Of a stretch of DNA of 36,850 nt, positions 2,214 through 35,270 are shown piece by piece. The notes under the pieces are model-generated. The model did no database searches, was not told the origin of the DNA, and saw only the letters and a program-made list of their open reading frames with translations. The stretch lies in the IMG/VR virus record IMGVR_UViG_3300005731_000099, positions 1 to 36,850 of that record. One strand, written 5' to 3'. The DNA comes from a virus. Made by a program: the position numbers and the translations under genes. The stretch's first letter is position 1. The number at the start of each line of letters is the position of its first letter.

Positions 2214-2264
2214 AGTTATTAACATTTGCAACCTATTTAAAAAATAAGCGTTATATTGCCACAC

Positions 2265-2792
2265 ATGAGTCCACAAGAGGCGGTACAAGAAGTAATTACA
2301 GATGACACATGGTTAAAGCTGTGTAATAAGTGGACGACTAGAGACGGGCAAACACATTTTGCAGGGGATTTATACGGGGAGTTTTGTTTAACTATGCTAG
2401 AGTACGATCCTAAAAAGATTCAATCTATGCTAGATAATGCTAAAGACATGAGCCATCCACTAGATTTAGTGCGCTTGTGTTGTTTCTCTGTTCTTAATCG
2501 AATGTGGAATAGTAGCACTAGCCCTTTTTATAGGAAGTATAGAAAGCATTTTGTAATAGATAGGCTAAGTTATGAAGCGGAGTTTTTAGATGAGCCGATA
2601 GACATTGAGACGTTTCTAGTAAGTTACAATAAGGTCAAACAAGATGCACCACGATTAGAAGTATTAATGACTAGGTTGTATGCAGAGTTAGGAAGTTTTA
2701 GAGCCATTGAAAGAGAGGTAGGTATTAACCATCAAACAGCATTTAGATATGTTAGAAAGTTTAGAGATAGATTTAACTCCAGCGATTATTAG
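2265..2792 (+). CDS. Sigma-70-like transcription factor, 175 aa
   Basis: The N-terminal half (FAGDLYGEFCLTMLEYD, residues 32-48, followed by helices to SPFYRKYRK) resembles the region 2 helices of ECF-type sigma factors. Residues about 142-170 (GSFRAIEREVGINHQTAFRY) form a region 4-like helix-turn-helix. Its length suits a minimal sigma factor. I infer a role in redirecting host polymerase, perhaps to the repeated late motif upstream of the structural genes. The ATG at 2265 is preferred over a TTG nine bases upstream. TTTG (2225) and TATATTGC (2252-2259) upstream may be a promoter giving a near-leaderless message. A small terminase-type DNA-binding protein is less likely because a terminase small subunit is present at 4044. 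Confidence 0.6.
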   Translation: MSPQEAVQEVITDDTWLKLCNKWTTRDGQTHFAGDLYGEFCLTMLEYDPKKIQSMLDNAKDMSHPLDLVRLCCFSVLNRMWNSSTSPFYRKYRKHFVIDRLSYEAEFLDEPIDIETFLVSYNKVKQDAPRLEVLMTRLYAELGSFRAIEREVGINHQTAFRYVRKFRDRFNSSDY

Positions 2793-6520: not shown

Positions 6521-6528
6521 AAAAAGAC

Positions 6529-7213: not shown

Positions 7214-7239
7214 TCGTACACATTCACTTATTTAAAGAC

Positions 7240-10737: not shown

Positions 10738-10819
10738 GTTATATGGGATATTTGTTGTAGATTAGTACTTTCATAGTGCCTTATTCCAGTAGGGCTGAAT
10801 TTTAATCAAAGAACAATTA

Positions 10820-10852
10820 AGACTAGATATTGCAGTATCTGGTCTTTTTTTT
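10820..10852 (+). terminator. Second terminator, directly before a late motif
   Basis: An 11-bp stem (AGACTAGATAT with GTATCTGGTCT, two G-T pairs) and loop TGCA are followed by eight T. It ends five bases before GTTACA of the late motif, insulating the late transcription unit. Confidence 0.8.
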
Positions 10853-10857
10853 GTGCT

Positions 10858-10888
10858 GTTACATTAACGACATATTAATATTTATTAG
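10858..10888 (+). promoter_or_regulatory. Late motif copy A (GTTACA-N13-AATATTTATTAG)
   Basis: This is one of five copies with identical spacing. It lies one base before the ATG at 10890 and just after a terminator. It is best read as a phage late promoter or operator. The host TAnnTTTG pattern is absent. Confidence 0.7.
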
Positions 10889-10889
10889 T

Positions 10890-11462
10890 ATGAGCTTTAA
10901 AGGTATTACGGTAAACGACTTTATAGAACTTAGGAGGATAGCAGAGGATAATCAAGGTAATCCAGTTAGACAGCAGATTAAGACACTAGCCTATGTGTTA
11001 GGAAGGTCAGAGGATGAGATAGGGGAGTTAAGCTACAAGAAAGTTAAGGAGCTATCTAAGAAGTATTCATGGGCTTACGGTTATCCTGATGCACCTATTA
11101 AAAAGTCATTTAGATTTAAGGGCAGACGTTTTAAGGCTATCCTAGACGCTAGAGATATCAAAGCTGGTCAATTCATAGACAGCACAGAGTTATCACAAGG
11201 AACGGAACTAGAGATGCTAGAGAGGTTACCTATCTTGTGTGGTGTGTTACTCCAGGAAACTACCCGATTCAAAAAGCATTTAAAAGATAAAGACAAATTC
11301 AAGTTAGTTGAGCAGATGCCTATTAACTACGTATATCCTAACATTGTTTTTTTTTGCAAAGTTTACACAGCCTTATTGCCGAGTATAGCACATTATTTAA
11401 AGGAGACGGGGGAGCAGATTCTAGCGCAGCATGGTTTGTCAAGCGATACGGATGGAGAGTGA
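10890..11462 (+). CDS. Tail assembly chaperone, short form (gpG-like), 190 aa
   Basis: The short product begins MSFKGITVNDFIELRR and is helical, with ERLPILCGVLLQETTRFKK before the shift site. It fits the short chaperone of the gpG/gpGT pair that keeps tape measure protein soluble during tail assembly. The ATG at 10890 is chosen because it directly follows the late motif; an upstream in-frame ATG at 10830 would lie inside the terminator. Nine T (11347-11355) at codons 154-155 allow a -1 shift into the T domain. Normal reading adds 35 residues and stops at 11462. Confidence 0.75.
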   Translation: MSFKGITVNDFIELRRIAEDNQGNPVRQQIKTLAYVLGRSEDEIGELSYKKVKELSKKYSWAYGYPDAPIKKSFRFKGRRFKAILDARDIKAGQFIDSTELSQGTELEMLERLPILCGVLLQETTRFKKHLKDKDKFKLVEQMPINYVYPNIVFFCKVYTALLPSIAHYLKETGEQILAQHGLSSDTDGE

Positions 11463-11605
11463 CAATAGATAACTTAGCCAACGGGGATATACTAAAGTAT
11501 GATGCTATTTTTAACATACCAGTAATAGAGTTTTTAAATATGTTATCATTCCAAAAGGATAAACAAAGATTAGAGAGAGAACAAAGTCAGAAAAAAGTTA
11601 GGTAG
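10890..11605 (+). CDS. Tail assembly chaperone, -1 frameshift long form (gpGT-like), about 238 aa
   Basis: After slipping one base at 11348-11354 the ribosome reads TTG CAA AGT and continues 83 codons to TAG at 11605. That frame has no ATG before residue 63 of the extension, so it is unlikely to be translated alone. It contains RYGWRVTIDNLANGDILKYD and PVIEFLNMLSFQKDKQRLE. The W-x-x-x-I-x-x-L-A-x-G-D-x-x-K-x-D pattern is typical of the T part of tail chaperones in Bacteroidota phages. T domains usually bind tape measure protein. The coordinates span both frames. The exact shift is inferred; a separate start or a sequencing error in the T run are the alternatives. Confidence 0.7.
11347..11355 (+). 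other. Slippery run of nine T for -1 frameshifting
   Basis: In the zero frame the codons are GTT TTT TTT TGC. T-TTT-TTT at 11348-11354 fits the X-XXY-YYZ heptamer, with all pairs kept after slipping. The -1 frame is open across and beyond the run to 11605. No strong downstream hairpin was identified by eye. Confidence 0.7.
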
Positions 11606-11608
11606 TAT

Positions 11609-11639
11609 TTTGTTATATTAAATTTTTGTTGTATTTTGC
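11609..11639 (+). promoter_or_regulatory. Bacteroidota-type promoter inside the late block
   Basis: TTTG (11609-11612) is followed after 19 bases by TATTTTGC (11632-11639), close to TTTG-N19-TAnnTTTG. It begins four bases after the end of the chaperone long form and points into a tiny reading frame and a hairpin-rich region. Confidence 0.55.
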
Positions 11640-11660
11640 ATAAATAAACGCAAGTATATT

Positions 11661-11738
11661 ATGGGGCAAATATTCTTAATATTATTAACGGCTGCAGCCG
11701 TATTGCAATTTATAAGAGTTTGGAGGCATCTAAGCTAG
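11661..11738 (+). CDS. Very small membrane peptide, 25 aa
   Basis: ATG at 11661 starts a 25-codon frame that is almost wholly one membrane helix (GQIFLILLTAAAVLQFI) with a basic end (RVWRHLS). A consensus promoter lies about 20 bases upstream. It could be a real peptide or the chance content of a non-coding transcript. Confidence 0.35.
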   Translation: MGQIFLILLTAAAVLQFIRVWRHLS

Positions 11739-11739
11739 T

Positions 11740-11914
11740 ACATTATAAGACATTCTGATTCCTTTAATATTTTGGTATTAGAAACTTTCATGAGCTGTTT
11801 AAACGGGGAACTCACATTACTTAAATGTTGTTTTCCCCGAACAGCTTGATAAACTCTTCAACTATCGTTGCCGTTTTCACACGGGACTTTTAAGGGGCAT
11901 AATGCTATCGCATT
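11740..11914 (+). other. Hairpin-rich non-coding region, candidate structured RNA
   Basis: The largest palindrome pairs AGCTGTT (11793-11799) and CGGGGAA (11804-11810) with TTCCCCG (11833-11839) and AACAGCT (11840-11846), leaving a four-base bulge and a 22-base loop. A second hairpin, AATGC-TATC-GCATT, lies at 11901-11914, and an imperfect 10-bp palindrome precedes 11793. No convincing gene is seen. It lies between a host-type promoter and late motif copy B. Confidence 0.45.
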
Positions 11915-11923
11915 TGTAACCCT

Positions 11924-11954
11924 GTTACATTAATGATGTATTAATATTTATTAG
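11924..11954 (+). promoter_or_regulatory. Late motif copy B
   Basis: GTTACA at 11924 and AATATTTATTAG at 11943-11954 have the same 13-base spacer as the other copies. The GTG start of the tail completion gene follows five bases after its end. Confidence 0.7.
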
Positions 11955-11958
11955 TGTA

Positions 11959-12483
11959 GTGATAGATTACAAAGAGATAGAAAAGTTAGGTAGAGACGTA
12001 CAAGACGTTGTGGGTAAGGCAGCAGCAGATTCCCTAAGTGAATTAGCTACTAAGTTAATAGACATCTTGAAACGTAACGCACCAGACAACAGCGGATTCT
12101 TACAGCAGACAATTAGCGCACTACCATTAAGTCAAACTCCTGACGGCATTAAATTAGACATCACATGGGCTGACTATGGTACGTACATAGATGAGGGTGT
12201 TAGAGGCGCAAAGACTACATACTCAGAATCAACTAGCAGTCCATTCAGTTATAAATCTAAGATGCCACCAACAAACTTTAGTACAATAGGAGGGCAATCA
12301 TTAGCGCAATATGCAGAGTCTAAAGGTATTAGTCCTTTTGCAGTTGCTAAGTCTATATTTAACAAAGGGCTTAGAGCGACTAAATGGGCTACGAATAGTT
12401 TAAGTGGTGCGGAGTTGGAAAGGTTAATAGATGAACTAGCAGTTGAGTTCGTTAAGAGTTTTGAATTTAAGATAGTAAAATAA
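11959..12483 (+). CDS. HK97 gp10-like tail completion protein, 174 aa
   Basis: The start helix is followed by ELATKLIDILKRNAPDNSGFL, which resembles the HK97-gp10 family (basic-hydrophobic helix, then APxxTGxL), and by a strand with WADYGTYIDEGVRG (Y-x-x-Y-V-E-x-G in the family). Such proteins sit at the head-tail joint or complete the tail. GTG at 11959 is the only start near the family N-terminus and lies just behind late motif B. Its stop overlaps the next ATG (TAATG). Confidence 0.65.
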   Translation: MIDYKEIEKLGRDVQDVVGKAAADSLSELATKLIDILKRNAPDNSGFLQQTISALPLSQTPDGIKLDITWADYGTYIDEGVRGAKTTYSESTSSPFSYKSKMPPTNFSTIGGQSLAQYAESKGISPFAVAKSIFNKGLRATKWATNSLSGAELERLIDELAVEFVKSFEFKIVK

Positions 12484-13718
12484 TGGCAATAACAATAGAG
12501 CAACAAAACAGCGGTATAGTTAACGCATACAATCCAATAGACTATGTAGCAAGTTCTACCAATACGGGGCAAACTTCATTCAAGTACATAGCTGACTTAT
12601 ACATAGATGGTGTAAATGTACATAGATACTTAATACCTGCAGACCCTAATTTTAGTGAGTGCTTTGTAAATACCTCTGATATTGTGCAGTCTTATTTGTC
12701 TTTTAACTTTGATGCTACGCTATCCGATACGGTTGTAGAGGAGAACGGTAATAGTATAGTAGAGACTTATATCGAGTTCGGAGAGCAGTACGATGTAGCT
12801 GGTACAATAACAGACTTCACAGCACTAGCAACTACTAACACAATTAAAGCGTTAAACGGTGCTTTAGACTTTGAAAGCTATATTGATTATGACTATACAG
12901 ATTATGAGATAGACGGGACTGGTGCTAATAAGTTTCTAACTAACGCACCACTAACTAGGACGGTATCTGATACTATGAATCATTGGCTTTATGCGATTAC
13001 AGATGAGTCAACTATCTACCCTCATTTATTTGTGATACGAACCTATGATATTAACGGAACACTCAACGGACAATTTCAGATAAACAATAATAACAGAGGA
13101 GGCGGTGCTTTAGAAGATGATCATATTAGAATAGCAAGTGGTTTAAATATTAATAATCTAACCGTTGATGCAGTTGTAACGGGTGCGACTCCAATACTAG
13201 ATGCTGATGTTTATAGCTACTCTATACAGATGTATGATACGGGCATAACCTCCACAAGTGAACTTAGAACCTTTAATATAGATTATGATTGTCTAGGGTT
13301 AGATAAGTATGTGCTACACTTTCAAAACGCACTAGGCGGCTTTGATAGTTTTAGCTTTGATTTAGTTAATAGGTTTGAATGGGATAAGGAGACACAGAAT
13401 TACATGAGTGCAGGGTACACACGTTCAAGCGGTGCGGTTAGCAGAGCCACAAGCACACACCAAAGAAAGTCCTATAATACCACCGTTAAAAAAAGCATAT
13501 CATTGAAAAGTAATTGGATAACAGAGGCAGAGTCGTTATGGCTTAGGGAGTTATTTGATAGCCCCGTTATCTATTTAGAATATCCTGATAATACTATGAT
13601 AGCGGTTAGTGGTATTAGCCTAACACAAAAGACGGAAGATATTACCAAAGTAGACAAGCTATTTAATTTAGAATTAGTAGCGGAGTATTCATTCGATAGT
13701 TACAGACAGAAGTGGTAG
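12483..13718 (+). CDS. Tail structural protein (distal tail/baseplate type), 411 aa
   Basis: This beta-rich protein contains YVLHFQNALGGFDSFSFDL, RKSYNTTVKKSISLKSNW and a closing DKLFNLELVAEYSFDS. This layout recurs in Bacteroidota phage tail proteins located before a large hub protein. The role is inferred from this pattern and from its place between tail completion and the 969-residue protein. No enzymatic motif or signal peptide is seen. Small overlaps with both neighbours indicate one transcription unit. Confidence 0.6.
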   Translation: MAITIEQQNSGIVNAYNPIDYVASSTNTGQTSFKYIADLYIDGVNVHRYLIPADPNFSECFVNTSDIVQSYLSFNFDATLSDTVVEENGNSIVETYIEFGEQYDVAGTITDFTALATTNTIKALNGALDFESYIDYDYTDYEIDGTGANKFLTNAPLTRTVSDTMNHWLYAITDESTIYPHLFVIRTYDINGTLNGQFQINNNNRGGGALEDDHIRIASGLNINNLTVDAVVTGATPILDADVYSYSIQMYDTGITSTSELRTFNIDYDCLGLDKYVLHFQNALGGFDSFSFDLVNRFEWDKETQNYMSAGYTRSSGAVSRATSTHQRKSYNTTVKKSISLKSNWITEAESLWLRELFDSPVIYLEYPDNTMIAVSGISLTQKTEDITKVDKLFNLELVAEYSFDSYRQKW

Positions 13719-16621
13719 AAATTTACATAGATAATACTTTACTAGATACCTCTGACGCGGTTGCCTTTCCGCTTAACTTTTCTATTGCAGATATTAGAGA
13801 ACCTAGTAAACGTCAGCAGTCATTCAGTAAGACTATTAGCCTACCATCTAGTGACGCTAATAATAAGCTATTCACACACGCTTTTAATGTTAATAGATCG
13901 GGCGGTTACAATCCTAATCTAAAAGCTGACTGCTTAGTATTGCAAGATAGCATAGAAGTGTTTAAGGGATCGGCTCAATTAAAAAAGGTAACGCAAAAAG
14001 GCTCAAAGATATACGGCTATGATATTGTTATTTACGGTAAGCTGTCAAATATCTTCTTTGATATTGCTAGAGGTAAATTATCAGAGTTAGACTTTTCAGA
14101 GTTTGACCATGCTTATACTAAAACTAATCAAGACAATAGCTGGGATACTTCAATTATAGAGAACGCTGGAAGTGTAGCCTTTGCGCTTGGTAACGGTTAT
14201 GTATATCCGTTAATAGACTATGGATATTCAACTAATCAGGTAGACTTTAAGGTAACAGACTTAAAGCCTGCTTTGTATGCTAAGACGGTAGTAGATAAGA
14301 TATTTAGCACACATGGCTATACATACGACTCTACTTTTTTTGATAGCACATTCTTTAAGTCTTTAATTGTTCCATTCACTAGACAGCGTTTAGAGATGGA
14401 TAGCAGCGAGATAGAAGCTAAGTTATTCCAAGCAGGTAACAGCGCAAAACAAGAAATAGAGTTCGCAAGTGCAGCAACACCCACAAGCGCACTAAGAGAG
14501 ACGATAGAATTTGATGATGATAGTACGGGCGGTAATTTTGACAACGGTGGTAACTATGACACAGGTGCTTATCAATACACCGTTCCTGATAACGGCATCT
14601 ATTCAATAAATACTAGAATCTATGTAGGCGTTAGACTTGTACCTGATACTCCAGGTATTGCAATGACTCCGACATTTACAGACGTGTTAGATTGTGTGGC
14701 TAGGGTACTTATAAACGGCACCCCTGTTAACACACAAGTATTACAAATAGACTTTGGAAACATAGCAGCCTTTACTACTTCTTACGAGTCAGCTAACACG
14801 ATAGCGCAGCCCGATCCTAACGGCATATTCTTAGGTTCTCAATTTAGCACTTACTCAAACTTATTTAGCGTTTACACTAACTCACTACAATTAACAGCAG
14901 GGGACACCGTTGAGATAGAATTTTTCCCTAGTTCTGGCTCTAGCCAATGGCAAACTTACGGAACTAATGAACGCTTTATAGATGGTAGTTTAAATCTATA
15001 CGGTGGAGACTATTACCTGCAAGTTAAGACAGGTAGCACGTTCTATAATAAAGTAGATAACACAGCGGTAATTGAGGGTGGTACGGTTAATATGTCTAAT
15101 GTACTACCAGTTGAGATTGAGCAAAAAGACTTTCTAAGTAGCATAGTAAAGATGTTTAACTTGTATGTTGAGCAAGATAAAGACAATGCACAGAACTATC
15201 TAATTGAGCCGCGTAATGACTTCTATGTTTCCGCTAATGAAGATTGGGAGTTGAAACTAGATGAGGATAGTGAGCAAGACATTATACCTATGGGTGTGTT
15301 AGATGCTGCTAGATACTTATACTCTTACAAGCAAGATAAAGACTATTATAACGAGTTGTATGAGTCAACTTATGGCGAGGTTTACGGTCAACACATTGAG
15401 GACGTTAATAACGATTTTTTAAAGAATGAAAAGAAAACAGAGTTAATATTCAGCCCTACACCATTAGCAGACAATGGCGGTGCCTCTGATATGGTAATGT
15501 CTAGGATATTCCAAGTAGATAGCAGCAACAATATTAAACCGTATGCAGCCAATATAAGATTATTATACTATGGAGGCTTAAAGACAATTAACGGAGGGCA
15601 ATGGAATCACATAGGGGCTAGTGCTACAAGCTCATTTTTTACTTACCCTTATTGCGGTCACTTAGATGATCCGTTTAACCCTAGTGTTGACTTGAATTTT
15701 GGAATAGTTAAGGAAGTATATTATAATGATAATTGGCAAGATATTACCTGGACCAACAATAATATCTATAATATCTATCACTCTCAATTTATAGATGAGA
15801 TAACTAGTGAGGACTCAATCTTATTTACTGGCTATTTTAGACTACGTAGTAAAGATGTTTATGATATAGACTTTAGAAATCAATACTACTTTAAAAACAG
15901 CTATTGGAGGCTAAACAAGGTTATAGACTTTGATCCTAGTAATGACAGCTTAACTAAATGCGAGTTTGTAAAGATTAAAGAGGTGGCTACGTTTAGCCCT
16001 ACAACGGTAACTATAATCGGTGCAGCAGATGATGATGTAGAATATCCTACTCCAAAGATGAAAACTACCGACATGACAGACGGTAATTCATTCACTAAGA
16101 AGATGGATATTGTAGTAGGTGGTAGTGGTAACATAGTAGCACCTGATGCTAGGATGGTAACTATACAAGGAAACGACAATATAGTAAGCTCTAAGAGTGA
16201 GAATATCCACATAAGCGGAGACGGTAATTTTATCGGAGAGGAAGCTAGTAATGTAGTTCTTATTAACTCTGATAATTTAAGTATAAGTGAATCAGATGTA
16301 ACTTACATCAATGGTAATTTAATAGATGAGAAGATAATAGCATTAAGGACTATTCAAACACTAACGTCAAGCGGTACTATGTCAAACGCTTACAGAACAA
16401 CTTTATGCGACACTTCAAGTGGGGATATAGATTTAACCATAACAGCAGCGGCTAACTCAGAGAGGTTAAGATTTACAATTAAGAAAATAGATGCAGCTAA
16501 TAATGTCAATATAACAACAGCCGCAAGTGATGACATAGACGGCAGTACAACAATAACATTAACAAGTTTAAACGACTCCGTAGAATTAGAGTCCGACGGA
16601 ACACAATATAATATAGTATAA
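13712..16621 (+). CDS. Large tail hub/baseplate protein with beta-repeat tail, 969 aa
   Basis: The N-terminus (FPLNFSIADIREPSKRQQSF, SKTISLPSSDANNKLF) is typical of the large structural protein of Bacteroidota siphophages that likely forms the tail tip hub. Residues about 800-870 contain repeating G-x-x-N-I-V and V-x-I-x-G units (GSGNIVAPDARMVTIQGNDN), suggesting a short beta-helix. The last 85 residues (MSNAYRTTLCDTSSGDIDLT, LRFTIKKIDAANNVNITTA, VELESDGTQYNIV) match a small beta domain common at the ends of phage fibre proteins. GTG start at 13712. It may contact the receptor. Confidence 0.65.
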   Translation: MVEIYIDNTLLDTSDAVAFPLNFSIADIREPSKRQQSFSKTISLPSSDANNKLFTHAFNVNRSGGYNPNLKADCLVLQDSIEVFKGSAQLKKVTQKGSKIYGYDIVIYGKLSNIFFDIARGKLSELDFSEFDHAYTKTNQDNSWDTSIIENAGSVAFALGNGYVYPLIDYGYSTNQVDFKVTDLKPALYAKTVVDKIFSTHGYTYDSTFFDSTFFKSLIVPFTRQRLEMDSSEIEAKLFQAGNSAKQEIEFASAATPTSALRETIEFDDDSTGGNFDNGGNYDTGAYQYTVPDNGIYSINTRIYVGVRLVPDTPGIAMTPTFTDVLDCVARVLINGTPVNTQVLQIDFGNIAAFTTSYESANTIAQPDPNGIFLGSQFSTYSNLFSVYTNSLQLTAGDTVEIEFFPSSGSSQWQTYGTNERFIDGSLNLYGGDYYLQVKTGSTFYNKVDNTAVIEGGTVNMSNVLPVEIEQKDFLSSIVKMFNLYVEQDKDNAQNYLIEPRNDFYVSANEDWELKLDEDSEQDIIPMGVLDAARYLYSYKQDKDYYNELYESTYGEVYGQHIEDVNNDFLKNEKKTELIFSPTPLADNGGASDMVMSRIFQVDSSNNIKPYAANIRLLYYGGLKTINGGQWNHIGASATSSFFTYPYCGHLDDPFNPSVDLNFGIVKEVYYNDNWQDITWTNNNIYNIYHSQFIDEITSEDSILFTGYFRLRSKDVYDIDFRNQYYFKNSYWRLNKVIDFDPSNDSLTKCEFVKIKEVATFSPTTVTIIGAADDDVEYPTPKMKTTDMTDGNSFTKKMDIVVGGSGNIVAPDARMVTIQGNDNIVSSKSENIHISGDGNFIGEEASNVVLINSDNLSISESDVTYINGNLIDEKIIALRTIQTLTSSGTMSNAYRTTLCDTSSGDIDLTITAAANSERLRFTIKKIDAANNVNITTAASDDIDGSTTITLTSLNDSVELESDGTQYNIV

Positions 16622-16622
16622 T

Positions 16623-18212
16623 ATGAGTTACAGTACGCAGAGATCTACAATAATTTATTCAGACTACCAATCAACTTTAGCAGATACGGCAGAAATTGAC
16701 AGCGGGTGGTTAGATATGGAGGGCGTTGATAAAGTCCAATTTAGCGGCTATTCGGACACAGCTGGACTAACAATGACTATAGAGTCAAAAGTAAACAACA
16801 CAACAGCACCCACGCAATTAAGCACACCTGTTACTTATACAGACGGTACTTTTTATTTGTTTAATGTAATTTGCCGTCAAAGGTGGATGAGATTTAAATG
16901 GACTAATAACACAGGAGGAGTAGTTAATGATGCTTCAATGGAGATTAAACAAACCTTTGGAAGCTCAGACAAATTAAGTGTGTTTCCTGTTGGTGTTAAT
17001 CCTAGTATATTTAGCCAAGCGGCATTGGTGCAATCTATAACAAGAGGTAAGCAGCCCGATGGCGATTATGTAGCAGTTCCAGCAGACGGTACGGCGGTTA
17101 GCACAAGTAGTACGTTAACAGCTTCTAGTACTTATACTTCAAGTTGGGTAGATAGTGACGGGTTTAATGAAATAGATTTGCTAATAGCTACAGACGTTGA
17201 GAGCCAAGAAGATGGAATAGTTATAGACTTTACAGACGATGCAAACGCTGGAAGCCCTACAGTGATACTATCAAAAACGTTTAGTTATAACCAAGTGGAT
17301 ATAGACAGGGGGTTTGTGCGTATTAAGTTAGCTCCAGCCTTAGACGGGTTTAGAATTTCATATACAAACGGTGCTACTGGTCAATCTAGCTTTTTTCTAG
17401 TTGCTGATCTAAGAACTAACGGAACGCCTCAAAGGCTTAATGCTGGAGGGTCGCAAGTTGTTAGTGATTTTGGTACAGAGGTCGCACTAGGGGAAGTGCC
17501 GAACTATACAATCGGTGATAAATTCGGGCGTAACTCAGACATAGACACAGGCTCAACGCCAGAGGATATAACAGAAATAGGAGGCATTTATGCTGGTCAG
17601 CCTTTATCATTCACGCCAGAGACTATTGAGGTATTTAGTGCTAGTGTGAATGATACGGCGGTAGGAACAGGGGCAAGGACGGTAAGGATAACAGGCTTAA
17701 AGACATCATCATCTAAGGAGTATGAGACAGAGGATTTAACATTATTAGGGGCAGTAGCCGTAACGTCTAGTAGTAGTTGGTGGCGGGTTAACAAGGTTGA
17801 AGTATTAACAGCTGGTAGTGGTGGTAGTAATGCGGGTATAATTACTTGTAGAGCAACTAGTACAACATCAGTAGTATTTGCTAAAGTACCTGTTGGCTAT
17901 AATCAAAGTCAGATAGCCGCTTACACCGTTCCTGATGGTAAGAAGATGATAATCAAACGTGCAAGGGTTGGAATAACGAGAGCTAACGGATCAGCTGGTA
18001 GTGCAACTATATGCTTACTTAAAAGACCAAGCGGAGGCGTGTTTAATTGTATTAGGGCTTTTGAACTTCAAACAGGGGCAGGTACCAATGTTACTTTTGA
18101 TGGTGGTATTATTTGTGAAGCTGGAACAGATATAAAATTTCAAGTAAAAGACGTATCAGACAATAACACAGTAGCAGAGGCAGGTGTTGAATATTATTTA
18201 ATTAACGCATAA
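16623..18212 (+). CDS. Virion structural/tail fibre-like protein, 529 aa
   Basis: This Ser/Thr/Gly-rich beta protein has no enzymatic motif. Residues about 345-440 (VGTGARTVRITGLKTSSSKE, WWRVNKVEVLTAGSGGSN) follow a G-A-R-T-V-x-I-x-G-L ... R-x-N-K/R-V ... G-x-x-N-x-G-x-I pattern seen in capsid- or tail-associated proteins of marine phages. The C-terminal part (YTVPDGKKMIIKRARVGIT) looks like a jelly-roll-like domain. It starts two bases after the hub gene and touches the tape measure start. Receptor binding is possible but not shown. Confidence 0.6.
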   Translation: MSYSTQRSTIIYSDYQSTLADTAEIDSGWLDMEGVDKVQFSGYSDTAGLTMTIESKVNNTTAPTQLSTPVTYTDGTFYLFNVICRQRWMRFKWTNNTGGVVNDASMEIKQTFGSSDKLSVFPVGVNPSIFSQAALVQSITRGKQPDGDYVAVPADGTAVSTSSTLTASSTYTSSWVDSDGFNEIDLLIATDVESQEDGIVIDFTDDANAGSPTVILSKTFSYNQVDIDRGFVRIKLAPALDGFRISYTNGATGQSSFFLVADLRTNGTPQRLNAGGSQVVSDFGTEVALGEVPNYTIGDKFGRNSDIDTGSTPEDITEIGGIYAGQPLSFTPETIEVFSASVNDTAVGTGARTVRITGLKTSSSKEYETEDLTLLGAVAVTSSSSWWRVNKVEVLTAGSGGSNAGIITCRATSTTSVVFAKVPVGYNQSQIAAYTVPDGKKMIIKRARVGITRANGSAGSATICLLKRPSGGVFNCIRAFELQTGAGTNVTFDGGIICEAGTDIKFQVKDVSDNNTVAEAGVEYYLINA

Positions 18213-20245
18213 TGGCAGAAAAGAAAATACAAGCTAGTTTAGAGTTTAACACTAAAGACGCTCAAAAGAGTGCTAATGACTTTGCTAAGTCTATAGACGG
18301 GGCTACTAAAACACTAGGAGGTTTAGAGGAACAGATAGAAAGAGATTTAGCAGCGTTAAAGAAACTACCTGCTGGAAGTAAAGAGTTTAATAAACTAGCC
18401 GCTGAAATAAGTAAGGCGAAAACAGAGGTAGCTAATTTAGAGTTAGCCTTTGAGACGTTAGACATGGAACAGCGTTTTACGGCTGGACTAGATGCAGTTA
18501 GTGGTGTTGCTGGTGGATTTGCAGCGGTTCAAGGTGCTACTGCTTTAGTAGGTGTTGAGAGTGCAGAGTTAGAGCAGCAACTATTGAAAGTTCAAGCTGC
18601 AATGGTTTTAAGCACTGGTATTAGAGATATCAGTACGGCTACTGCTGCGATGAGAAAACTTAACGTAGTAACCAAAGCACAAGCGGTTGTACAGCGTGTA
18701 CTAAACGTGGTTATGTCTGCCAATCCTATTGGATTGATAGTTACAGCTATCGGACTTTTAGCGGCTGGATTTGTAGCCTTTAGTGATAAGGCTAAGAAGA
18801 TTATGAGCGTGGTACTTGCTCCTTTAATCTTGCAATTCAAGTTAATGAAAGCAGGTATTGAGGCAATAGCAGAGGCGTTTGATATTATACCTGATGCAGC
18901 AGAGAGAGCAGCGGAAGCGCAAAGAATTGAAGCACAGAAAGCAGCGACAGCAGTTAAGAAAGCAGAACGCGAGAAACTAGAAAGCGTAGTTAAGAGTTTA
19001 GATGAAACTAAGAAAGCAGAAGAGGAGCGTTATGATTTTGAGATACGTAAAGCACAAGCAGCAGGTAAAAGCATTGAGGAATTAGAAAAGGAGAAACTAG
19101 GCTTTGTATTAGATAACCTAGCACAGCAAAAAGTTGCGTTACAAGACTTAGCAGACTTTAATCAAGAGATACTAGACAATCAATTTAAGGTAGTCCAGGA
19201 GCAAGGGGAAATACTAGGTAACTTGGAAATTGCTACAGCTAGAATAAGCAAGGCAGCAACAGAAAAGAAGATAAAAGACATAGCTGTATTAGAAGATAAA
19301 GCTGCAAAGGATGAGGAGATACGTGAGATAAAGAAACAGAAAGCAGCACAAGATAGGGCAAACGAAGCGTGGAAAAAAGCGCAAGAGGAGAAAAGGAAAC
19401 AAGAGGAGGATGCTAGGAAAGCACAAGAGGAAGCGGATAAAAAAGAAGAGGAAAGACTAAAAGCAAAGGCAGAGAAAGAAGCGCAGATTGAAGCTGAAAG
19501 GCGTAAAAACCTAGCAGACCAAGAAAGGGAATTTAGACAAACGTTAGAAGATGAAGCAGAGGAAAGATTCCAAAGGTCTTTAACAGAGGAGGAGAGAGAA
19601 ATAACAGCGGTCAATGATAAGTACTTTAGATTAATAGAACAAGCTAGACAATATGGTATTGATACGGCTGAACTAGAACAAGCACAAGCGGATGAACTAC
19701 AAGCGATTAGAGATAAAGCAGGGGAGAAAGAATTAGAGAAAGATAGAGCAATAGCAGAAGCTAAACAGCAGATTACAGATAACGTCATAGCAGGTGCGCA
19801 GTCAGCAACTAAGTTATTAATAAGTGATGCAGACAAAGCGGAGAAAGTACAGAAAGATATTACACTAGCGCAGATAGCAATAGATACAGCAAAGGCTATC
19901 AGTTCATTAACAGCAGCATCACAAGGCAACCCATTAAACGCACCTACGGGAGGTTTAGCTGGTATTGCTCAATTCTCTAGTGGTATTGCTACTATACTAG
20001 CTAATATGGCTAGTGCAGCGGCACTACTTAAAAAACCACGCCCACAAGTAGCAGGTACAAGCGGAGGTAGTTCTAGTGCTTCAAGCGGTGTAGCGATTAA
20101 CTCAGTAGGTAACGGCAGTACTATCATAAATGGTAATACAACGGGGACGCCTGAGCCTGTTAAAGTATTCGTAACTGAAACGGATATAAGCAGTACACAG
20201 AGCGCAGTTAATAATATAGTTGAGAGTGCTACGGTGGTGGAATAG
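18212..20245 (+). CDS. Tape measure protein, 677 aa
   Basis: The N-terminus (EKKIQASLEFNTKDAQKSAN) is followed by a coiled coil, then a hydrophobic stretch near residues 170-195 (NPIGLIVTAIGLLAAGFVAF). A long Lys/Glu/Ala coiled coil spans about 230-530, a second hydrophobic part lies near 585-615, and the end is low-complexity. This is the standard layout of siphovirus tape measures, which set tail length and help DNA entry. By the usual 1.5 angstrom per residue the tail would be about 100 nm. It lies downstream of the tail tip genes rather than after the chaperones. The stop is embedded in late motif C. Confidence 0.85.
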   Translation: MAEKKIQASLEFNTKDAQKSANDFAKSIDGATKTLGGLEEQIERDLAALKKLPAGSKEFNKLAAEISKAKTEVANLELAFETLDMEQRFTAGLDAVSGVAGGFAAVQGATALVGVESAELEQQLLKVQAAMVLSTGIRDISTATAAMRKLNVVTKAQAVVQRVLNVVMSANPIGLIVTAIGLLAAGFVAFSDKAKKIMSVVLAPLILQFKLMKAGIEAIAEAFDIIPDAAERAAEAQRIEAQKAATAVKKAEREKLESVVKSLDETKKAEEERYDFEIRKAQAAGKSIEELEKEKLGFVLDNLAQQKVALQDLADFNQEILDNQFKVVQEQGEILGNLEIATARISKAATEKKIKDIAVLEDKAAKDEEIREIKKQKAAQDRANEAWKKAQEEKRKQEEDARKAQEEADKKEEERLKAKAEKEAQIEAERRKNLADQEREFRQTLEDEAEERFQRSLTEEEREITAVNDKYFRLIEQARQYGIDTAELEQAQADELQAIRDKAGEKELEKDRAIAEAKQQITDNVIAGAQSATKLLISDADKAEKVQKDITLAQIAIDTAKAISSLTAASQGNPLNAPTGGLAGIAQFSSGIATILANMASAAALLKKPRPQVAGTSGGSSSASSGVAINSVGNGSTIINGNTTGTPEPVKVFVTETDISSTQSAVNNIVESATVVE

Positions 20246-20275
20246 TTACAAAACAAATAAAATAATATTTAATAG
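20245..20275 (+). promoter_or_regulatory. Late motif copy C
   Basis: GTTACA begins with the last base of the tape measure stop codon. AATATTTAATAG (20264-20275) ends one base before the ATG at 20277. The spacing is identical to the other copies. Confidence 0.7.
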
Positions 20276-20276
20276 T

Positions 20277-20882
20277 ATGGATAAGGTAAAAGTATTTGAG
20301 ATAGTTATAGAAAATAACCTAGAAGATGAAACGGGGGTGGACTTCATAGCGTTAGTTGACCAACCTGCAATCATGAAGAATTGGATGGCGTTTAATAGTC
20401 AAGAGAATAAACTAGCTTTTAAAAGTGTTGACAATGAGAAGCGGTTAATCATGGGGGCTGCTATGATACCAGACTTAAAGATATACAGACACGATGCAGA
20501 ACGTGGAGACTTCTATGTATATTTCTCTAAAGACACTATCTCAGATATCAGTAAGAAATACCACCGTAAAGGATTTAGTAATAACGTTAATGTTATGCAC
20601 GATCCTAATACACTAGCTACTGACGTATATGTAGTGGAGTCTTTTATAACTGATGAGGCTAGGGGCATATCAGATCCTAAAGGCTTTGACAATCCAGAGG
20701 GGACTTGGTATGTTACTATGCACGTAGATAATGACACTATTTGGAATGACTTTGTTAAGACTGGTCAATTTAAAGGATTCTCTGTGGAGGGCTTATTTAA
20801 TGAGATTGAAGATACAGAGACTAAAGAAGATAAGATACTAAAAGAGATTGACGCTATTATCAAATCAGAGTTTAAGAAATAA
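20277..20882 (+). CDS. XkdF-like prohead protease candidate, 201 aa
   Basis: The segments DFIALVDQPAIMKNWMAF, FSNNVNVMHDPNTLATDVYV (with the family's N-x-x-H position), VESFITDEARG, EGTWYVTMHVDNDTIWNDF and GQFKGFSVEGLF follow the Phage_XkdF family, predicted serine proteases of the capsid module. The ATG at 20277 is chosen because late motif C abuts it; an in-frame ATG upstream would lie inside the tape measure gene. Its product likely trims scaffold or capsid. The stop codon is part of palindromic element E2. Confidence 0.7.
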   Translation: MDKVKVFEIVIENNLEDETGVDFIALVDQPAIMKNWMAFNSQENKLAFKSVDNEKRLIMGAAMIPDLKIYRHDAERGDFYVYFSKDTISDISKKYHRKGFSNNVNVMHDPNTLATDVYVVESFITDEARGISDPKGFDNPEGTWYVTMHVDNDTIWNDFVKTGQFKGFSVEGLFNEIEDTETKEDKILKEIDAIIKSEFKK

Positions 20883-20926
20883 CGAACCATAAACAGCATT
20901 AAAACGCTGTCTATATTTTAGTTAGC
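20880..20926. repeat. attC-like palindromic element E2 between convergent genes
   Basis: TAAC (20880-20883) and GTTA (20921-20924) form the outer pair. ATAAACAGC (20889-20897) and GCTGTCTAT (20906-20914) form a 9-bp inner stem with one mismatch-type pair. The stop codons of the protease gene (plus) and DUF3268 gene (minus) lie in the two outer boxes. Bases 20897-20923 repeat 65-91 on the other strand. A bidirectional terminator is an alternative reading. Confidence 0.55.
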
Positions 20927-21344
20927 TGCAATAAATTTTATTCGCACAATAAGGCTTGCAAACCCGCACAACTTCATTGCAAAGTTCAACGTCAAACATT
21001 CCTATATGCGTAAATTCCTTTGGCGTTCCTATTTGCTTACCTAACCAAGCGTAAGCAGAGTTTCTAACTTCGTGCTTTCTTCTGCCCTGTTTCATTCCTT
21101 TACGCCAAAGTTGGTCAAAGTAAAAGTGTGCCTTCTTTTTTGCCTCCCGCAATTCCCTATTTGCAAGCCTTCCCAACGCTTGCTTACTCGTGCCGTGATG
21201 AACACCTACATAGGAATCACAGTCTTTGCAGTAATAAACCATTCCATAGCTTTTACCGTATATCACGGCACTATCCACGTAATCGGGTTTCTTGCCACAG
21301 TAAGGGCATTTTTTTGCGGTTGTTATATCTTTATCAAATTCCAT
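20922..21344 (-). CDS. DUF3268-like zinc-finger protein, 140 aa
   Basis: A zinc ribbon is visible: C13-x2-C16 (CPYCG) and C39-x2-C42 (CKDCDSYVGVH). It is followed by a helical part with LGRLANRELREAKKKAHFYF, AYAWLGKQIG and HIGMFDVELCNEVVRVC. These match the zinc-finger-containing DUF3268 family, which occurs on phages and mobile elements with unknown function. It runs against the late genes and is bracketed by two attC-like elements (E4 upstream, E2 downstream), so it may be a mobile cassette or moron. Confidence 0.75.
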   Translation of the reverse strand: MEFDKDITTAKKCPYCGKKPDYVDSAVIYGKSYGMVYYCKDCDSYVGVHHGTSKQALGRLANRELREAKKKAHFYFDQLWRKGMKQGRRKHEVRNSAYAWLGKQIGTPKEFTHIGMFDVELCNEVVRVCKPYCANKIYCS

Positions 21345-21369
21345 AAAATTTACAGTTCACTTCGTCAGC

Positions 21370-21425
21370 TAACACAGGGTATAAAAAACTTCGCTTTGCT
21401 TCGCATTTCATACCCAAGTCCGTTA
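21370..21425. repeat. attC-like palindromic element E4
   Basis: TAAC (21370-21373) and GTTA (21422-21425) form the outer pair. GGGTAT (21377-21382) and ATACCC (21410-21415) form the inner stem, with spacers of 3 and 6 bases and a 27-base loop holding two GCGAAG copies on the minus strand. The stop of the minus-strand 21423 gene lies inside the GTTA box. I recall similar palindromes beside cassette-like genes in Bacteroidota, but this was not checked. Confidence 0.55.
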
Positions 21426-21785
21426 TTCACTATCCAGCATCTTCTTAAATCGTGTTATCTCTTGCTCCATTACATCACTATAAAACTGCTTAAAATCTTT
21501 TGTAGAATCAGATTGAGCATGGAGTAAGTATAATACATTCCTTAATCTTTGGCTTTTAGTCTTGCCCTCTAACTCTATATCGCAGTCATCTATTAAATCT
21601 ATTTCTGCTTGTGTTAAGTCTCCGTCATTCTTAAAGTATAAGATACCTATGCCGTTTACCATCTCATCACACTCCATAAATTCTTGAGTGCTTTGTTCTA
21701 GTGTTGTAGTAAATGACAATTTAACGCTTCTATCCTTTCTACGTGTTGCGCTGTCTAGTGTTACCTGTCTAATTATCTTACTCAT
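21423..21785 (-). CDS. Conserved hypothetical protein, 120 aa
   Basis: The protein starts SKIIRQVTLDSATRRKDRSV and contains STQEFMECDEM, IELEGKTKSQRLRNVLYLL and a helical end (FKQFYSDVMEQEITRFKKM). The E-G-K-T-x-S-Q-R-L-R-x-V-L-Y segment is one I associate with uncharacterised Bacteroidota phage proteins. Function is unknown. Its start overlaps the previous minus-strand gene by 8 bases, and its stop forms part of element E4. Confidence 0.6.
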   Translation of the reverse strand: MSKIIRQVTLDSATRRKDRSVKLSFTTTLEQSTQEFMECDEMVNGIGILYFKNDGDLTQAEIDLIDDCDIELEGKTKSQRLRNVLYLLHAQSDSTKDFKQFYSDVMEQEITRFKKMLDSE

Positions 21786-21951
21786 AAGCTATTTTTATTA
21801 AATACGACCATGTATATTGATTTAAAGTTAAGTTTCCATCTACCTCACTATACACCACTTCGTCCGTTATAGGCAGAATAAAATAACCGTCTATTTCAGT
21901 CATCCTATTTATATGATTCTGTAACATTGAACGTGCCTTTCCCTTTGTCAT
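21778..21951 (-). CDS. Hypothetical protein, 57 aa
   Basis: From ATG at 21951 the product is MTKGKARSMLQNHINRMTEI and then a short beta-rich part (YFILPITDEVVYSEVDGN). A longer form could start at 21972, but the TATCTTTG promoter element at 21977-21970 predicts transcription starting near 21964, downstream of that codon. It is the first gene of a three-gene minus-strand unit inside the late block. Function is unknown. Confidence 0.5.
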   Translation of the reverse strand: MTKGKARSMLQNHINRMTEIDGYFILPITDEVVYSEVDGNLTLNQYTWSYLIKIAYE

Positions 21952-21963
21952 AAGTTCAAAATT

Positions 21964-21994
21964 GTTACACAAAGATAATAAAAATATTTACTAA
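21964..21994 (+). promoter_or_regulatory. Late motif copy E, upstream of scaffold and capsid genes
   Basis: GTTACA (21964) and AATATTTACTAA (21983-21994) keep the 13-base spacer but differ at two positions of the second box. The leader to the ATG at 22018 is 23 bases, longer than at copies A, C and D. It overlaps a minus-strand promoter element. Confidence 0.65.
21970..21977 (-). promoter_or_regulatory. Minus-strand -7 element (TATCTTTG) for the reverse-oriented gene cluster
   Basis: TATCTTTG matches the host-type -7 consensus TAnnTTTG. No clear -33 TTTG is seen. It lies inside late motif E on the opposite strand, so the two units could interfere. Confidence 0.45.
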
Positions 21995-22017
21995 TGTACT
22001 AATAATTATTAATTAAT

Positions 22018-22689
22018 ATGAGTTTTAAAGAAAAATTTACAAAGCTATTCGTAGATGTAGATGCAGCAGATCGTAAGACCGTTAGTGAAGCATTTAACGA
22101 AGCTCTTGCAGATTTAGACTCTAGTACTTCTACTAATTCTTTTATTGATGTCCCTACCTCAAATGGTACTATGCTTAGCATTGAACCAGGTGTTGAAGTT
22201 GGTGCTGCTGTTACCATGCCAGACGCAGAAGGTAACATAGTTCCAGCAGAAGATGGAGAGCATGAGCTAGAAGATGGACGTATTATCGTAACGGTTGGCG
22301 GTGTCATTGATGACGTGCTAACTCCAACGGGAGAGACGGTTGAAGTATCAGAAGAAGAGATGAGCGATATTGCACCTAAAGCAGATGCGCCTTCTCCTAA
22401 GTCAGTAATCGAGCGTACAGAAGTGGAGAAGAAATTTGAAGCAGAAGTTGAGGAGGTAGAAGAGGTTGCAGAACCTGCTATTGAGTCAGCATCTAAAGAA
22501 GATTTTGACGCACTTAAAAATGAATTTGCTGCTTACAAAGTAGAGGCAGAAAACAAACTAGACAAAGTGTTAGAAGCTGTTGAAGTCTTAATGGACTTTA
22601 GCGCAGTACAGCCTACAGAAAAACCAAAGACGGCTGGTATGACTATGTCTAGAATAGTAGAGTTTAAAAAACAATTAAGAAAAAGATAA
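22018..22689 (+). CDS. Head scaffolding protein, 223 aa
   Basis: This very acidic protein has the segment DGEHELEDGRIIVTVGGVID (residues about 80-99), a hairpin motif common in scaffold proteins of XkdF-type capsid modules. It also has a Glu/Val-rich coiled coil at about 135-195 and a basic C-terminal helix (MTMSRIVEFKKQLRKR) of the kind that binds capsid protein. It precedes the major capsid gene by one base. Family assignment rests on composition, motif and position. Confidence 0.7.
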   Translation: MSFKEKFTKLFVDVDAADRKTVSEAFNEALADLDSSTSTNSFIDVPTSNGTMLSIEPGVEVGAAVTMPDAEGNIVPAEDGEHELEDGRIIVTVGGVIDDVLTPTGETVEVSEEEMSDIAPKADAPSPKSVIERTEVEKKFEAEVEEVEEVAEPAIESASKEDFDALKNEFAAYKVEAENKLDKVLEAVEVLMDFSAVQPTEKPKTAGMTMSRIVEFKKQLRKR

Positions 22690-22690
22690 A

Positions 22691-23605
22691 ATGAAAAAAT
22701 TTAATTTTGATTTTGACGTTTCCGCTTTAAGTAATTATACAGAAGAACCAGCGGAACTCATTAGAAAAGCGGTAGTAGGTGCTAAAACTATGATGCACGT
22801 TACGCATCAGACAGGTATTAAATCTGCTGAAACTATTAATTATATCGGTGGAGACATTACTTTCCAAGCTGGTGGCACTTGCGGATTTAACGCATCAGGT
22901 ACTAGAGATATCTCACAACGTACTATTACGGTATGTAAGATTAAGGTAAATGAGGAAATGTGTATGAAAACACTAGAGTCTAAGTTTACTCAAAAATTAC
23001 TTTCTCCAGGATCTACTTATGATGAGTCTGATATCCCTTCAATCTTTATTGATGATATGTCTGAGAAGATTGCTTATGAAGTTGAGAAACTTTTGTGGAG
23101 AGGAGACACCGCAGGTTCTGGTAACTTAGCGTTATGTGATGGGTTTAATAAACTTATTGATAACTCTACAGGTGCTGTACGTTCATCTAGTGGTACTGCA
23201 TTTACTGGAAACGAAGTTGCTGTAATTAAGCAATTTGTTTTGGATATTCCAGAAGAAATCAGAGACCAAGCAGGATTAACTGTATTTATGGGTAGAGATT
23301 GGTTTGATCAATACAACCAAGCTATCTTCTCATTGAATAACAGATGGGATGCACCAGAAGATGGAACAGACGGAAAAGTACTTTATACTAATATTCCGAT
23401 TGTAGTAGTTCCAGGATTGACAGGACAAAGCAGAATCGTTTGTACTTACAAAGAGAATATGATTGTAGGGCAAGATTTAGAAAATGAAGAAGAGCAGTTT
23501 GATATGTGGTTCTCTAAGGATGATGATATCCACAAATTGAAAGTTGAGTTTAAACTTGGTGTTCAATTTGCGTTCCCTGAGTTAGTAGTTTACTACGCAG
23601 AGTAA
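22691..23605 (+). CDS. Major capsid protein (HK97 fold), 304 aa
   Basis: Length, position after scaffold and several segments fit an HK97-fold major capsid protein: YIGGDITFQAGGTCGFNASG, FIDDMSEKIAYEVEKLLWRG (spine helix) and LTVFMGRDWFDQYNQAIFS (P-domain), then the C-terminal VEFKLGVQFAFPELVVYY. There is no long N-terminal delta domain, in keeping with a separate scaffold gene. A GC-rich hairpin follows and may limit read-through. Confidence 0.85.
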   Translation: MKKFNFDFDVSALSNYTEEPAELIRKAVVGAKTMMHVTHQTGIKSAETINYIGGDITFQAGGTCGFNASGTRDISQRTITVCKIKVNEEMCMKTLESKFTQKLLSPGSTYDESDIPSIFIDDMSEKIAYEVEKLLWRGDTAGSGNLALCDGFNKLIDNSTGAVRSSSGTAFTGNEVAVIKQFVLDIPEEIRDQAGLTVFMGRDWFDQYNQAIFSLNNRWDAPEDGTDGKVLYTNIPIVVVPGLTGQSRIVCTYKENMIVGQDLENEEEQFDMWFSKDDDIHKLKVEFKLGVQFAFPELVVYYAE

Positions 23606-23618
23606 TTAAGTTAGTAAT

Positions 23619-23646
23619 AGGAGGGGGCTAGTTCCCTCTCCTTATT
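23619..23646 (+). terminator. Terminator or attenuator after the capsid gene
   Basis: AGGAGGGGG and CCCTCTCCT form a 9-bp stem with one G-T pair and a six-base loop, followed by TATTT. It is unusually GC-rich for this genome. The short T tract suggests partial termination between capsid and tail tube genes. Confidence 0.65.
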
Positions 23647-23659
23647 TAAAAATATAAAT

Positions 23660-24175
23660 ATGAGTTGTGTAACATTAACGGGATATACTTTAAGCTGCGA
23701 TAGAGCAAGTGGTGGAGTTAAGACGGTGTACATGGTTGAACACTCTGATATTACATCATACGCTCAAAATAGCGCTGGACTTGTAACAGGTATTACCCTT
23801 GCAAGTGGTGTTGTTTTAAAAGAGTATGAAGTACAAAGAGAGGACAGCGATTGGACTGAGACGTTTGCAGGTGCTAGAGAAAATAGAACTGTAGCATGGG
23901 ATCAGACACTAAGACTTAAAATCCACAAAAAGGATGCAGCTATTAGAACAGAGATTTTAGCATTAGCTAACTTCACAGGTGCAGCGATTGTACAAGAGGA
24001 AGATGGCGGATACTATTTCTTAGGTGCTGATAGCGGTTTAGATATGACCCCTACAACGGCTGGTCAGTCAGGTATCAATAGAGAAGATATGAACGGCTGG
24101 ACTATTGAGTTGCAAGGTAAGGAGAAACTAGCAGCACCAGAAGTTGATAGTTCTATCATTGCAGGTTTATTGTAA
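23660..24175 (+). CDS. Major tail tube protein, 171 aa
   Basis: The protein follows the Bacteroidota phage tail tube pattern: Cys-rich start (MSCVTLTGYTLSCDRASGGV), KTVYMVEHSDIT, a strand pair (LKEYEVQREDSDWTETF, TVAWDQTLRLKIHKKDAAIR), then YYFLGADSGLDMTP and WTIELQGKEKLAAPEVDSS. It polymerises into the tail tube around the tape measure. Location right after the capsid gene, 3.4 kb beyond the tape measure, is unusual. Confidence 0.8.
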   Translation: MSCVTLTGYTLSCDRASGGVKTVYMVEHSDITSYAQNSAGLVTGITLASGVVLKEYEVQREDSDWTETFAGARENRTVAWDQTLRLKIHKKDAAIRTEILALANFTGAAIVQEEDGGYYFLGADSGLDMTPTTAGQSGINREDMNGWTIELQGKEKLAAPEVDSSIIAGLL

Positions 24176-24196
24176 TAATATCCTAATATAATTAAG

Positions 24197-24224
24197 AGCC
24201 TACGTTAATAGCGTGGGCTTTTTT
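24197..24224 (+). terminator. Terminator after the tail tube gene
   Basis: AGCCTACG and CGTGGGCT pair over 8 bases (one G-T) around a short loop and are followed by a run of six T. Late motif D follows after about 20 bases, repeating the terminator-plus-motif arrangement seen at 10.8 kb. Confidence 0.8.
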
Positions 24225-24244
24225 ATGCTCTATAATTAAATTCT

Positions 24245-24275
24245 GTTACAAAAAACAAATAATAATATTTATTAG
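24245..24275 (+). promoter_or_regulatory. Late motif copy D
   Basis: GTTACA (24245) and AATATTTATTAG (24264-24275), with a 13-base spacer, end one base before ATG at 24277. This copy most closely resembles copy A. Confidence 0.7.
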
Positions 24276-24276
24276 T

Positions 24277-24612
24277 ATGATTAAAGATATTTTTATAGAT
24301 GCTATTATAACCACACCTAAAACAGGTAGAGTTGTAATTGTTGACGATCCTAGTCAATACGATAGATACAAAGCGTTAGGCTTTCACTACATTTTTGAAG
24401 ATAGCAAAGAGGTAAAAGAAACGCCAATAGAAAAACCAGAAAGTTTGGAAGAGCCTAAAAGAATGTCATTCCCTTTAACTACTAGCGAGAAACTAGCTAA
24501 TAAAACTAAAAAGGAATTGATAGAAATAGCAGAAGAGAAAGGACTAGATGTAGTAATTAATATGCCTAAAAAAGCAATCATAGACTTAATTAATGATTCT
24601 GATTTATCATAA
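24277..24612 (+). CDS. Hypothetical structural protein with SAP/HeH-like C-terminus, 111 aa
   Basis: The N-terminal half is beta-rich (IIT..TGRVVIVDDPSQYDRY). The C-terminal helices (LANKTKKELIEIAEEKGL, then MPKKAIIDLIND) match the helix-extended-helix pattern of SAP/HeH/LEM-like domains, often DNA-binding. It is the first gene of the portal unit behind late motif D and overlaps the next gene by 20 bases. Its precise place in the particle is unknown. Confidence 0.55.
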   Translation: MIKDIFIDAIITTPKTGRVVIVDDPSQYDRYKALGFHYIFEDSKEVKETPIEKPESLEEPKRMSFPLTTSEKLANKTKKELIEIAEEKGLDVVINMPKKAIIDLINDSDLS

Positions 24613-24991
24613 TACTACTAATAAAGTTGCTTTAACACTAAGCGAAAAAACTACAATAAGCACTCCTACTTACTTGTTTAGTTTTACCAATGTGCAAACG
24701 CAGTACAATATTACATTCATTGCAGATGATACATCATGCAACACAGATAGGTTTAATTTATTTGACATCATAGAGAATACTACACAAGATAGATTAAATG
24801 GAACGGTAACGCTCCACGATGTAGGGCAATGGGATTACACCGTATACGCTCAAAGTAGCACAACTAATTTAGATGTAACCCTAGCAGATGAAACGGTAGA
24901 GACAGGAATGGTTAAAGTATTAAGCGGTGCATCAGACACAGATACCACCTACACACTAGACGAAATAGACGTACAATATGACCCAGAGTAA
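24593..24991 (+). CDS. Conserved structural protein, 132 aa
   Basis: This beta-sandwich-like protein contains TYLFSFTNVQTQYNITFIAD, RFNLFDIIE, a W-D-Y-T-V-Y-A-Q-S motif and VETGMVKVLSG. The pattern recurs in Bacteroidota phages directly before the portal gene. It may be a decoration or connector-associated protein. The exact role is not known. It overlaps both neighbours. Confidence 0.55.
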   Translation: MILIYHNTTNKVALTLSEKTTISTPTYLFSFTNVQTQYNITFIADDTSCNTDRFNLFDIIENTTQDRLNGTVTLHDVGQWDYTVYAQSSTTNLDVTLADETVETGMVKVLSGASDTDTTYTLDEIDVQYDPE

Positions 24992-35239: not shown

Positions 35240-35270
35240 CAAATATAGTTATTTTTTTTGATTCTGCAAA
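35240..35270 (-). promoter_or_regulatory. Consensus Bacteroidota promoter of the replication operon
   Basis: On the minus strand, TTTG (35270-35267) and TATATTTG (35247-35240) are separated by exactly 19 bases, a full match to the host housekeeping consensus. The promoter overlaps the 3' end of the 35249 gene. Transcription should start near 35233. Confidence 0.75.

Follow-up and report, generated by a model that had tools for sequence, protein, structure and literature searches.

Candidate start-codon-adjacent late promoters in a virus contig and a putative phage sigma factor that may read them

The closest described systems are those of phages phiEco32 and 7-11 (PMC4331800), in which a small phage-encoded sigma factor reads a few well-conserved phage-specific promoters and the host sigma factor serves early transcription. 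Here we describe a candidate system of this kind in IMG/VR record IMGVR_UViG_3300005731_000099, a contig of 36,850 bases (the window) from a virus of bacteria of the Bacteroidota type, with genes that include those for tape-measure, protease, capsid-type, portal, terminase and amidase proteins. Five copies of a strictly spaced motif, GTTACA-N13-AATATTTANTAR, precede late genes in the window. They are probably late promoters specific to the phage, most likely read by a sigma factor of its own, with transcripts that would start at the start codon or next to it in three units. By analogy, the set would work as the sigma factors and promoters of those two phages do. However, the host phylum is different, the motif is unrelated, the ATG stands at the predicted start or adjoins it and, unlike in the comparison systems, no anti-sigma factor was identified in the window.

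Two further descriptions bear on this locus. The housekeeping promoter of the Bacteroidota consists of a -33 TTTG and a -7 TAHHTTTG element (PMC6847099). In Flavobacterium johnsoniae the latter ends 4 or 5 nucleotides before the transcription start, and 87% of transcripts have leaders longer than 10 nucleotides (PMC6847099). The motif shares the box-to-start distance, and its form in relatives of the window, TATATTTA, resembles the -7 box, but the window sites have GTTACA for TTTG, a shorter spacing and no last G of the -7 box; moreover, their predicted starts at the ATG differ from the long leaders of F. johnsoniae. Bacterial leaderless genes have been recognised by a -10-like box that lies about 10–12 bp 5' of the start codon (PMC3160421). 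Genes with such boxes adjoining the open reading frame (ORF) resemble those considered here in that the -10-like box, about 10 bp in front of the start codon, implies an mRNA without a leader (PMC3160421; PMC12340547), but they are host genes with the housekeeping box, whereas the present set is a candidate late regulon of a phage, in which the box has a -35-like partner at a constant distance. A search of the open-access literature yielded no account of late promoters in phage P12024 or other flavobacterial phages. The pair proposed here would be a candidate sigma factor with its promoters for late transcription in a phage group for which we found no transcription data and, if true, would imply leaderless virion mRNAs in bacteria whose translation rules are unusual and whose phylum normally has mRNAs with leaders but without Shine-Dalgarno sequences.

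The five sites and their retention in relatives

The pattern scan places all five copies on the plus strand, in sense orientation before virion genes, with GTTACA invariant and the 13-nucleotide spacer exact in each. One base separates the motif from the ATG at 10858, 20245 and 24245, whereas 4 bases precede the GTG start at 11924 and 23 bases follow the copy at 21964. In all these respects the first-pass annotation of this contig is borne out, as is its statement that the motif differs from the host form TTTG-N19-TAnnTTTG, which is matched by none of the five sites; the box of the relatives, too, lacks the final G of that form. Its tail consensus, T(T/C)TA(G/A), needs one correction: the copy at 20245 reads AATATTTAATAG, and the consensus tail becomes AATATTTA-N-TA-R.

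The exact pattern had no match across 100 shuffles. In an exhaustive dyad scan (all pairs of 6-mers, spacers 8–20) GTTACA-N15-TATTTA and its overlapping registers were the top dyads of the window genome, with five copies against a maximum of three in 30 dinucleotide shuffles. With the weight matrix built from the five sites, these score 35–43 bits, whereas no other place on the two strands scores above 5.3 bits. Hence the window has a shared motif at fixed spacing before several late units and nowhere else, as in a regulon. A scan for promoters of the sigma-70 type was uninformative here, with 52 sites found where 43 were expected. The window pattern also has 52 matches in IMG/VR, which we take as chance, as there is one per contig and no contig has several.

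Relatives were found by a capsid search and then by a two-sequence profile; their capsid proteins are 67–77% identical. A capsid search of GTDB genomes found no relative, and hence no host is assigned. The motif is present at the orthologous starts of the protease gene, the scaffold gene and the gene at 24277 in all relatives that cover the region (about ten). In three of them (G001, G002, G003) there are exactly three sites each, with zero mismatches, and no other site at three or fewer mismatches. The orthologue of the 11959 gene has the motif in both relatives whose contigs cover the terminase side, L104 and L118. Thus the motif is kept gene by gene in related phages, the comparison that the first-pass annotation had proposed as a check on its reading.

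The site of the relatives is GTTACA-N14-TATTTATWART at every gene, apart from a single copy with G in place of A; its spacer is one base shorter than the N15 of the window. Within each genome the spacer does not vary, being N15 throughout the window and N14 throughout the relatives, and as a control the pattern with the spacer off by one base gave no true site. A one-base shift that is identical at all sites is what a single trans-acting reader would lead one to expect. The outcome that was said in advance to refute the promoter idea, namely that close relatives lose the spacing, is not seen in the sense intended, the change being a single base and the same everywhere. The motif words were built into the regular expression applied to the relatives, and their invariance there is due to selection; the evidence is the retention at orthologous genes. 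The exact pattern of the relatives followed by ATG occurs in 15 stretches among 2.9 million viral contigs, and those of the 15 that were compared with the window all come from the same phage group. Several contigs of the relatives are near-identical, so that the 26 listed sites represent 15 distinct sequences. The adjacency to the ATG is kept at the orthologues of the protease and 24277 genes, and at the scaffold gene the motif stays 20–23 nucleotides from the ATG (23 in the window) in every relative while the sequence between them diverges. In the more distant relatives L010-L012, L015, L074, L076-L077 and L087-L088 the dyad scan showed no comparable dyad.

Predicted starts, the candidate reader and a parallel in phage P12024L

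Read in the Flavobacterium frame, AATATTTA in the window or TATATTTA in the relatives ends 5 nucleotides before the ATG, which, given the geometry of the F. johnsoniae -7 element, puts the predicted start at the A of the ATG or one base before it. The three units would be leaderless or nearly so, with GTTACA serving as the -35-like and TATTTA as the -10-like element; leaders of about 3 and about 22 nucleotides are predicted for the 11959 unit and the scaffold/capsid unit, respectively. In the three window units and in the relatives TATTTA lies at -11 to -6 from the ATG, that is, at the distance described for the -10 boxes of leaderless genes.

The candidate reader is the product of ORF 2256-2792, upstream of the terminase genes, which the first-pass annotation had not picked out. 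Host RNA polymerase carrying this small ECF-like sigma factor would recognise the five motifs. Orthologues in L102-L106 are 41–43% identical to it, and all five of them match NCBIfam sigma70-ECF TIGR02937 weakly over the full length, at about 2e-4. In region 2 the profile of the family aligns with that of gp35 from Nonlabens phage P12024L (P 76%, E 2e-5), and gp35 itself passes the Pfam Sigma70_r2 cut-off. A structure model of medium confidence (predicted local distance difference test, pLDDT, 74), compared with a viral fold library, has named sigma-70 region 2 and sigma70-ECF phage proteins among its better matches (E 0.015–0.05); a second model was of lower confidence. A tblastn search of named phages with a sigma orthologue gave no match. 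On this evidence the protein is likely to be the sigma factor reading the motifs; formally, it can be assigned to the ECF family only in part. The factor would itself be made early, from host-type promoters: host-like boxes were seen by eye 5' of its gene and of the orthologues, and minus-strand genes are preceded at 35270 by a promoter that matches the host type exactly, TTTG-N19-TATATTTG. A scheme with the host sigma factor early and the phage sigma factor late is the likely one, as far as these sequences tell.

Phage P12024L is a distant relative of the window by protease, capsid, portal and terminase. Its top dyad is AACAAA-N14-CGTTAA with overlapping registers, and there are five exact and two near copies, all 5–6 nucleotides before an ATG. 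The likeness to the window is in the arrangement, hexamer-N14-hexamer-N5/6-ATG, in the sigma gene lying 5' of the terminase and in the kinds of genes preceded; with the A of the ATG as +1, the upstream hexamer is at -32 to -27 in both. The words are different, however, and all seven P12024L sites adjoin the ATG. Contigs with gp35 relatives (47–67% identity) keep the sites at orthologous genes, with the ATG mostly at 6 and in a few cases at 8–9 nucleotides. Further, L123, a Bacteroidetes contig with a more distant, gp35-like sigma relative of 29% identity, has two CGTTAT boxes 6 nucleotides before ATG, at 11744 and 19556. One of them belongs to the gene that follows the tape-measure gene, and ATCA occupies the place of the upstream element at an equal distance. 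Two sites do not suffice for statistics, and CGTTAT may be a third promoter word of this type.

Thus, by comparison of genomes, a phage sigma factor with start-codon-adjacent late promoters appears as a recurring architecture in two phage groups. We see even chances for a broader proposal, that Bacteroidota siphophages have a widespread late programme in which a fast-diverging sigma factor co-evolves with its promoters at a fixed distance from the AUG, the virion mRNAs being mostly leaderless and the scaffold/capsid unit singled out by a short leader. As P12024L is a cultured phage, the prediction is directly testable there, and lineages with different promoter words in the same geometry would open the specificity of the sigma factor to study by sequence comparison.

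Alternatives to phage-sigma promoters

Several observations count against promoters read by a phage sigma factor. No counterpart of the 10858 copy was found in L104 or L118, the two relatives covering that place. The window protein alone has no match to any sigma family; the TIGR02937 matches of its orthologues stay under the curated cut-off; and fold and sequence searches of PDB with the candidate gave nothing significant (sigma factors being frequent among the fold matches). Finally, the box of the relatives, TATATTTA, differs by a single base from TAHHTTTG of the host and stands equally far from the presumed start, so that the host sigma factor could take part. For this last reason the main rival is that the late promoters are used by the host housekeeping sigma factor, with GTTACA as the site of a phage activator replacing the -33 contact. 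The sigma identity of ORF 2256-2792 being moderately supported, its product could be that activator. However, every copy has A where the host box ends in G, AATATTTA of the window resembles the host box less closely, and the distance from GTTACA to the box is shorter than that of the host -33 element. Moreover, CGTTAA of P12024L is unlike the host box and occurs alongside a clear sigma-70 region 2 protein, so that a second mechanism would be needed there. We consider this rival rather unlikely, and still less likely that the sites are late promoters from which transcription begins several bases within the gene or far 5' of it, the adjacency to the ATG being without functional meaning and the mRNAs not leaderless. 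Among the five units, that of scaffold and capsid does have a predicted leader of about 22 nucleotides; but the adjacency persists at the protease and 24277 orthologues, and the gap of 5–6 nucleotides recurs at all seven P12024L sites with a different motif.

The first-pass annotation had also allowed for a translational operator, and an mRNA-level operator or a ribosome-recruiting element before the start codons would agree with the three copies that adjoin the start codon, which place an A at both -3 and -6, favourable to initiation in Flavobacterium (PMC6847099). However, hairpins with T-tracts end a few bases 5' of the copies at 10858 and 24245 (two copies had been described as following terminators) and, in the relatives, of L008:7344, L104:12500 and L118:5435; the last two sites stand directly before an ATG, and their hairpins are weak by z-score. 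With terminators in this position an mRNA holding the motif would require read-through. The distance of 20–23 nucleotides at the scaffold gene in all relatives, across diverging sequence, suits a promoter and does not suit an operator on the ribosome side; the motif has no consistent RNA fold, and its 5' half with the fixed spacer suits a -35/-10 layout. We therefore regard the operator as highly improbable. In addition, two minus-strand genes lie between protease and scaffold in the window, and the scaffold/capsid unit needs a promoter of its own there. That the motif is a promoter can be held with high confidence, given its retention at orthologous genes, its concerted spacing, its place behind terminators and a box-to-ATG distance equal to the Flavobacterium box-to-start distance plus 0–1 nucleotide; the late-promoter reading of the first-pass annotation is strengthened accordingly.

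Coordinates and neighbouring features

Table 1. Candidate late promoters, adjoining genes and related features (window coordinates unless stated otherwise).
Feature	Position	Strand	Remarks
Candidate late promoter 1, GTTACATTAACGACATATTAATATTTATTAG	10858..10888	+	Pattern match; ATG at 10890; terminator 10819-10846 just 5'; without counterpart in L104, L118
Candidate late promoter 2, GTTACATTAATGATGTATTAATATTTATTAG	11924..11954	+	Pattern match; GTG start at 11959; orthologous sites L104:12500, L118:5435
Candidate late promoter 3, GTTACAAAACAAATAAAATAATATTTAATAG	20245..20275	+	ATG at 20277; kept at protease start in all covering relatives
Candidate late promoter 4, GTTACACAAAGATAATAAAAATATTTACTAA	21964..21994	+	Scaffold ATG at 22018; predicted leader about 22 nucleotides; kept in relatives, listed there at 20 nucleotides 5' of the ATG
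Candidate late promoter 5, GTTACAAAAAACAAATAATAATATTTATTAG	24245..24275	+	ATG at 24277; kept in relatives; hairpin terminator directly 5'
Intrinsic terminator before promoter 1	10819..10854	+	-13.6 kcal/mol, z -3.8
Intrinsic terminator before promoter 5	24194..24225	+	-16.5 kcal/mol, z -4.35
Unit 1 first gene, tail assembly-type	10890..11462	+	Possible frameshift partner 11354-11605
Unit 2 first gene	11959..12483	+	Weak match to phrog_29822
Unit 3 first gene, head maturation protease	20277..20882	+	PHROGs protease families, best named E 2e-15
Unit 4 first gene, putative scaffold	22018..22689	+	Assigned by gene order and PHROGs matches of the adjoining 22691-23605
Major capsid gene, after scaffold	22691-23605		PHROGs matches
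Unit 5 first gene	24277..24612	+	5' of portal gene 24978-26966
Candidate phage sigma factor, 178 amino acids, ECF-like	2256..2792	+	Proposed motif reader
Host-type promoter TTTG-N19-TATATTTG	35240..35270	-	Exact match; before minus-strand early/replication genes
P12024L genes with site	179, 3031, 5412, 22090, 24771, 26011, 27612		P12024L coordinates

Candidate promoter 3 begins inside the stop codon of the tape-measure gene. A long strong hairpin without a T-tract (AGCTGTT...CGGGGAA / TTCCCCG...AACAGCT, 11790-11848) lies 5' of candidate promoter 2. The two minus-strand genes between protease and scaffold occupy 20922-21785, and one of them encodes a DUF3268 zinc-finger protein (E 9e-38); both are absent from L008, where the gap between protease and scaffold is about 150 bases.

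A run of nine T (GTTTTTTTTTGCAAAG in the window and L118, GATTTTTTTTTGCAGAG in L104) occurs at the same place in the three contigs (window 11340-11605, L104 11810-12069, L118 about 5110), with an overlapping frame continuing in -1. It is likely to be the site of a programmed frameshift in the tail-assembly-type gene 5' of the tape-measure gene. The portal protein (24978-26966) is extended at its C-terminus, and the extension weakly matches transcriptional regulators of the winged-helix type. Finally, the small terminase gene is separated from the large one by a cassette whose genes are glycosyltransferase-like and sulfotransferase-like (window 4604-8426, L092 10313-12944); it is partly conserved in the relatives, its functions being judged by eye from the sequence.

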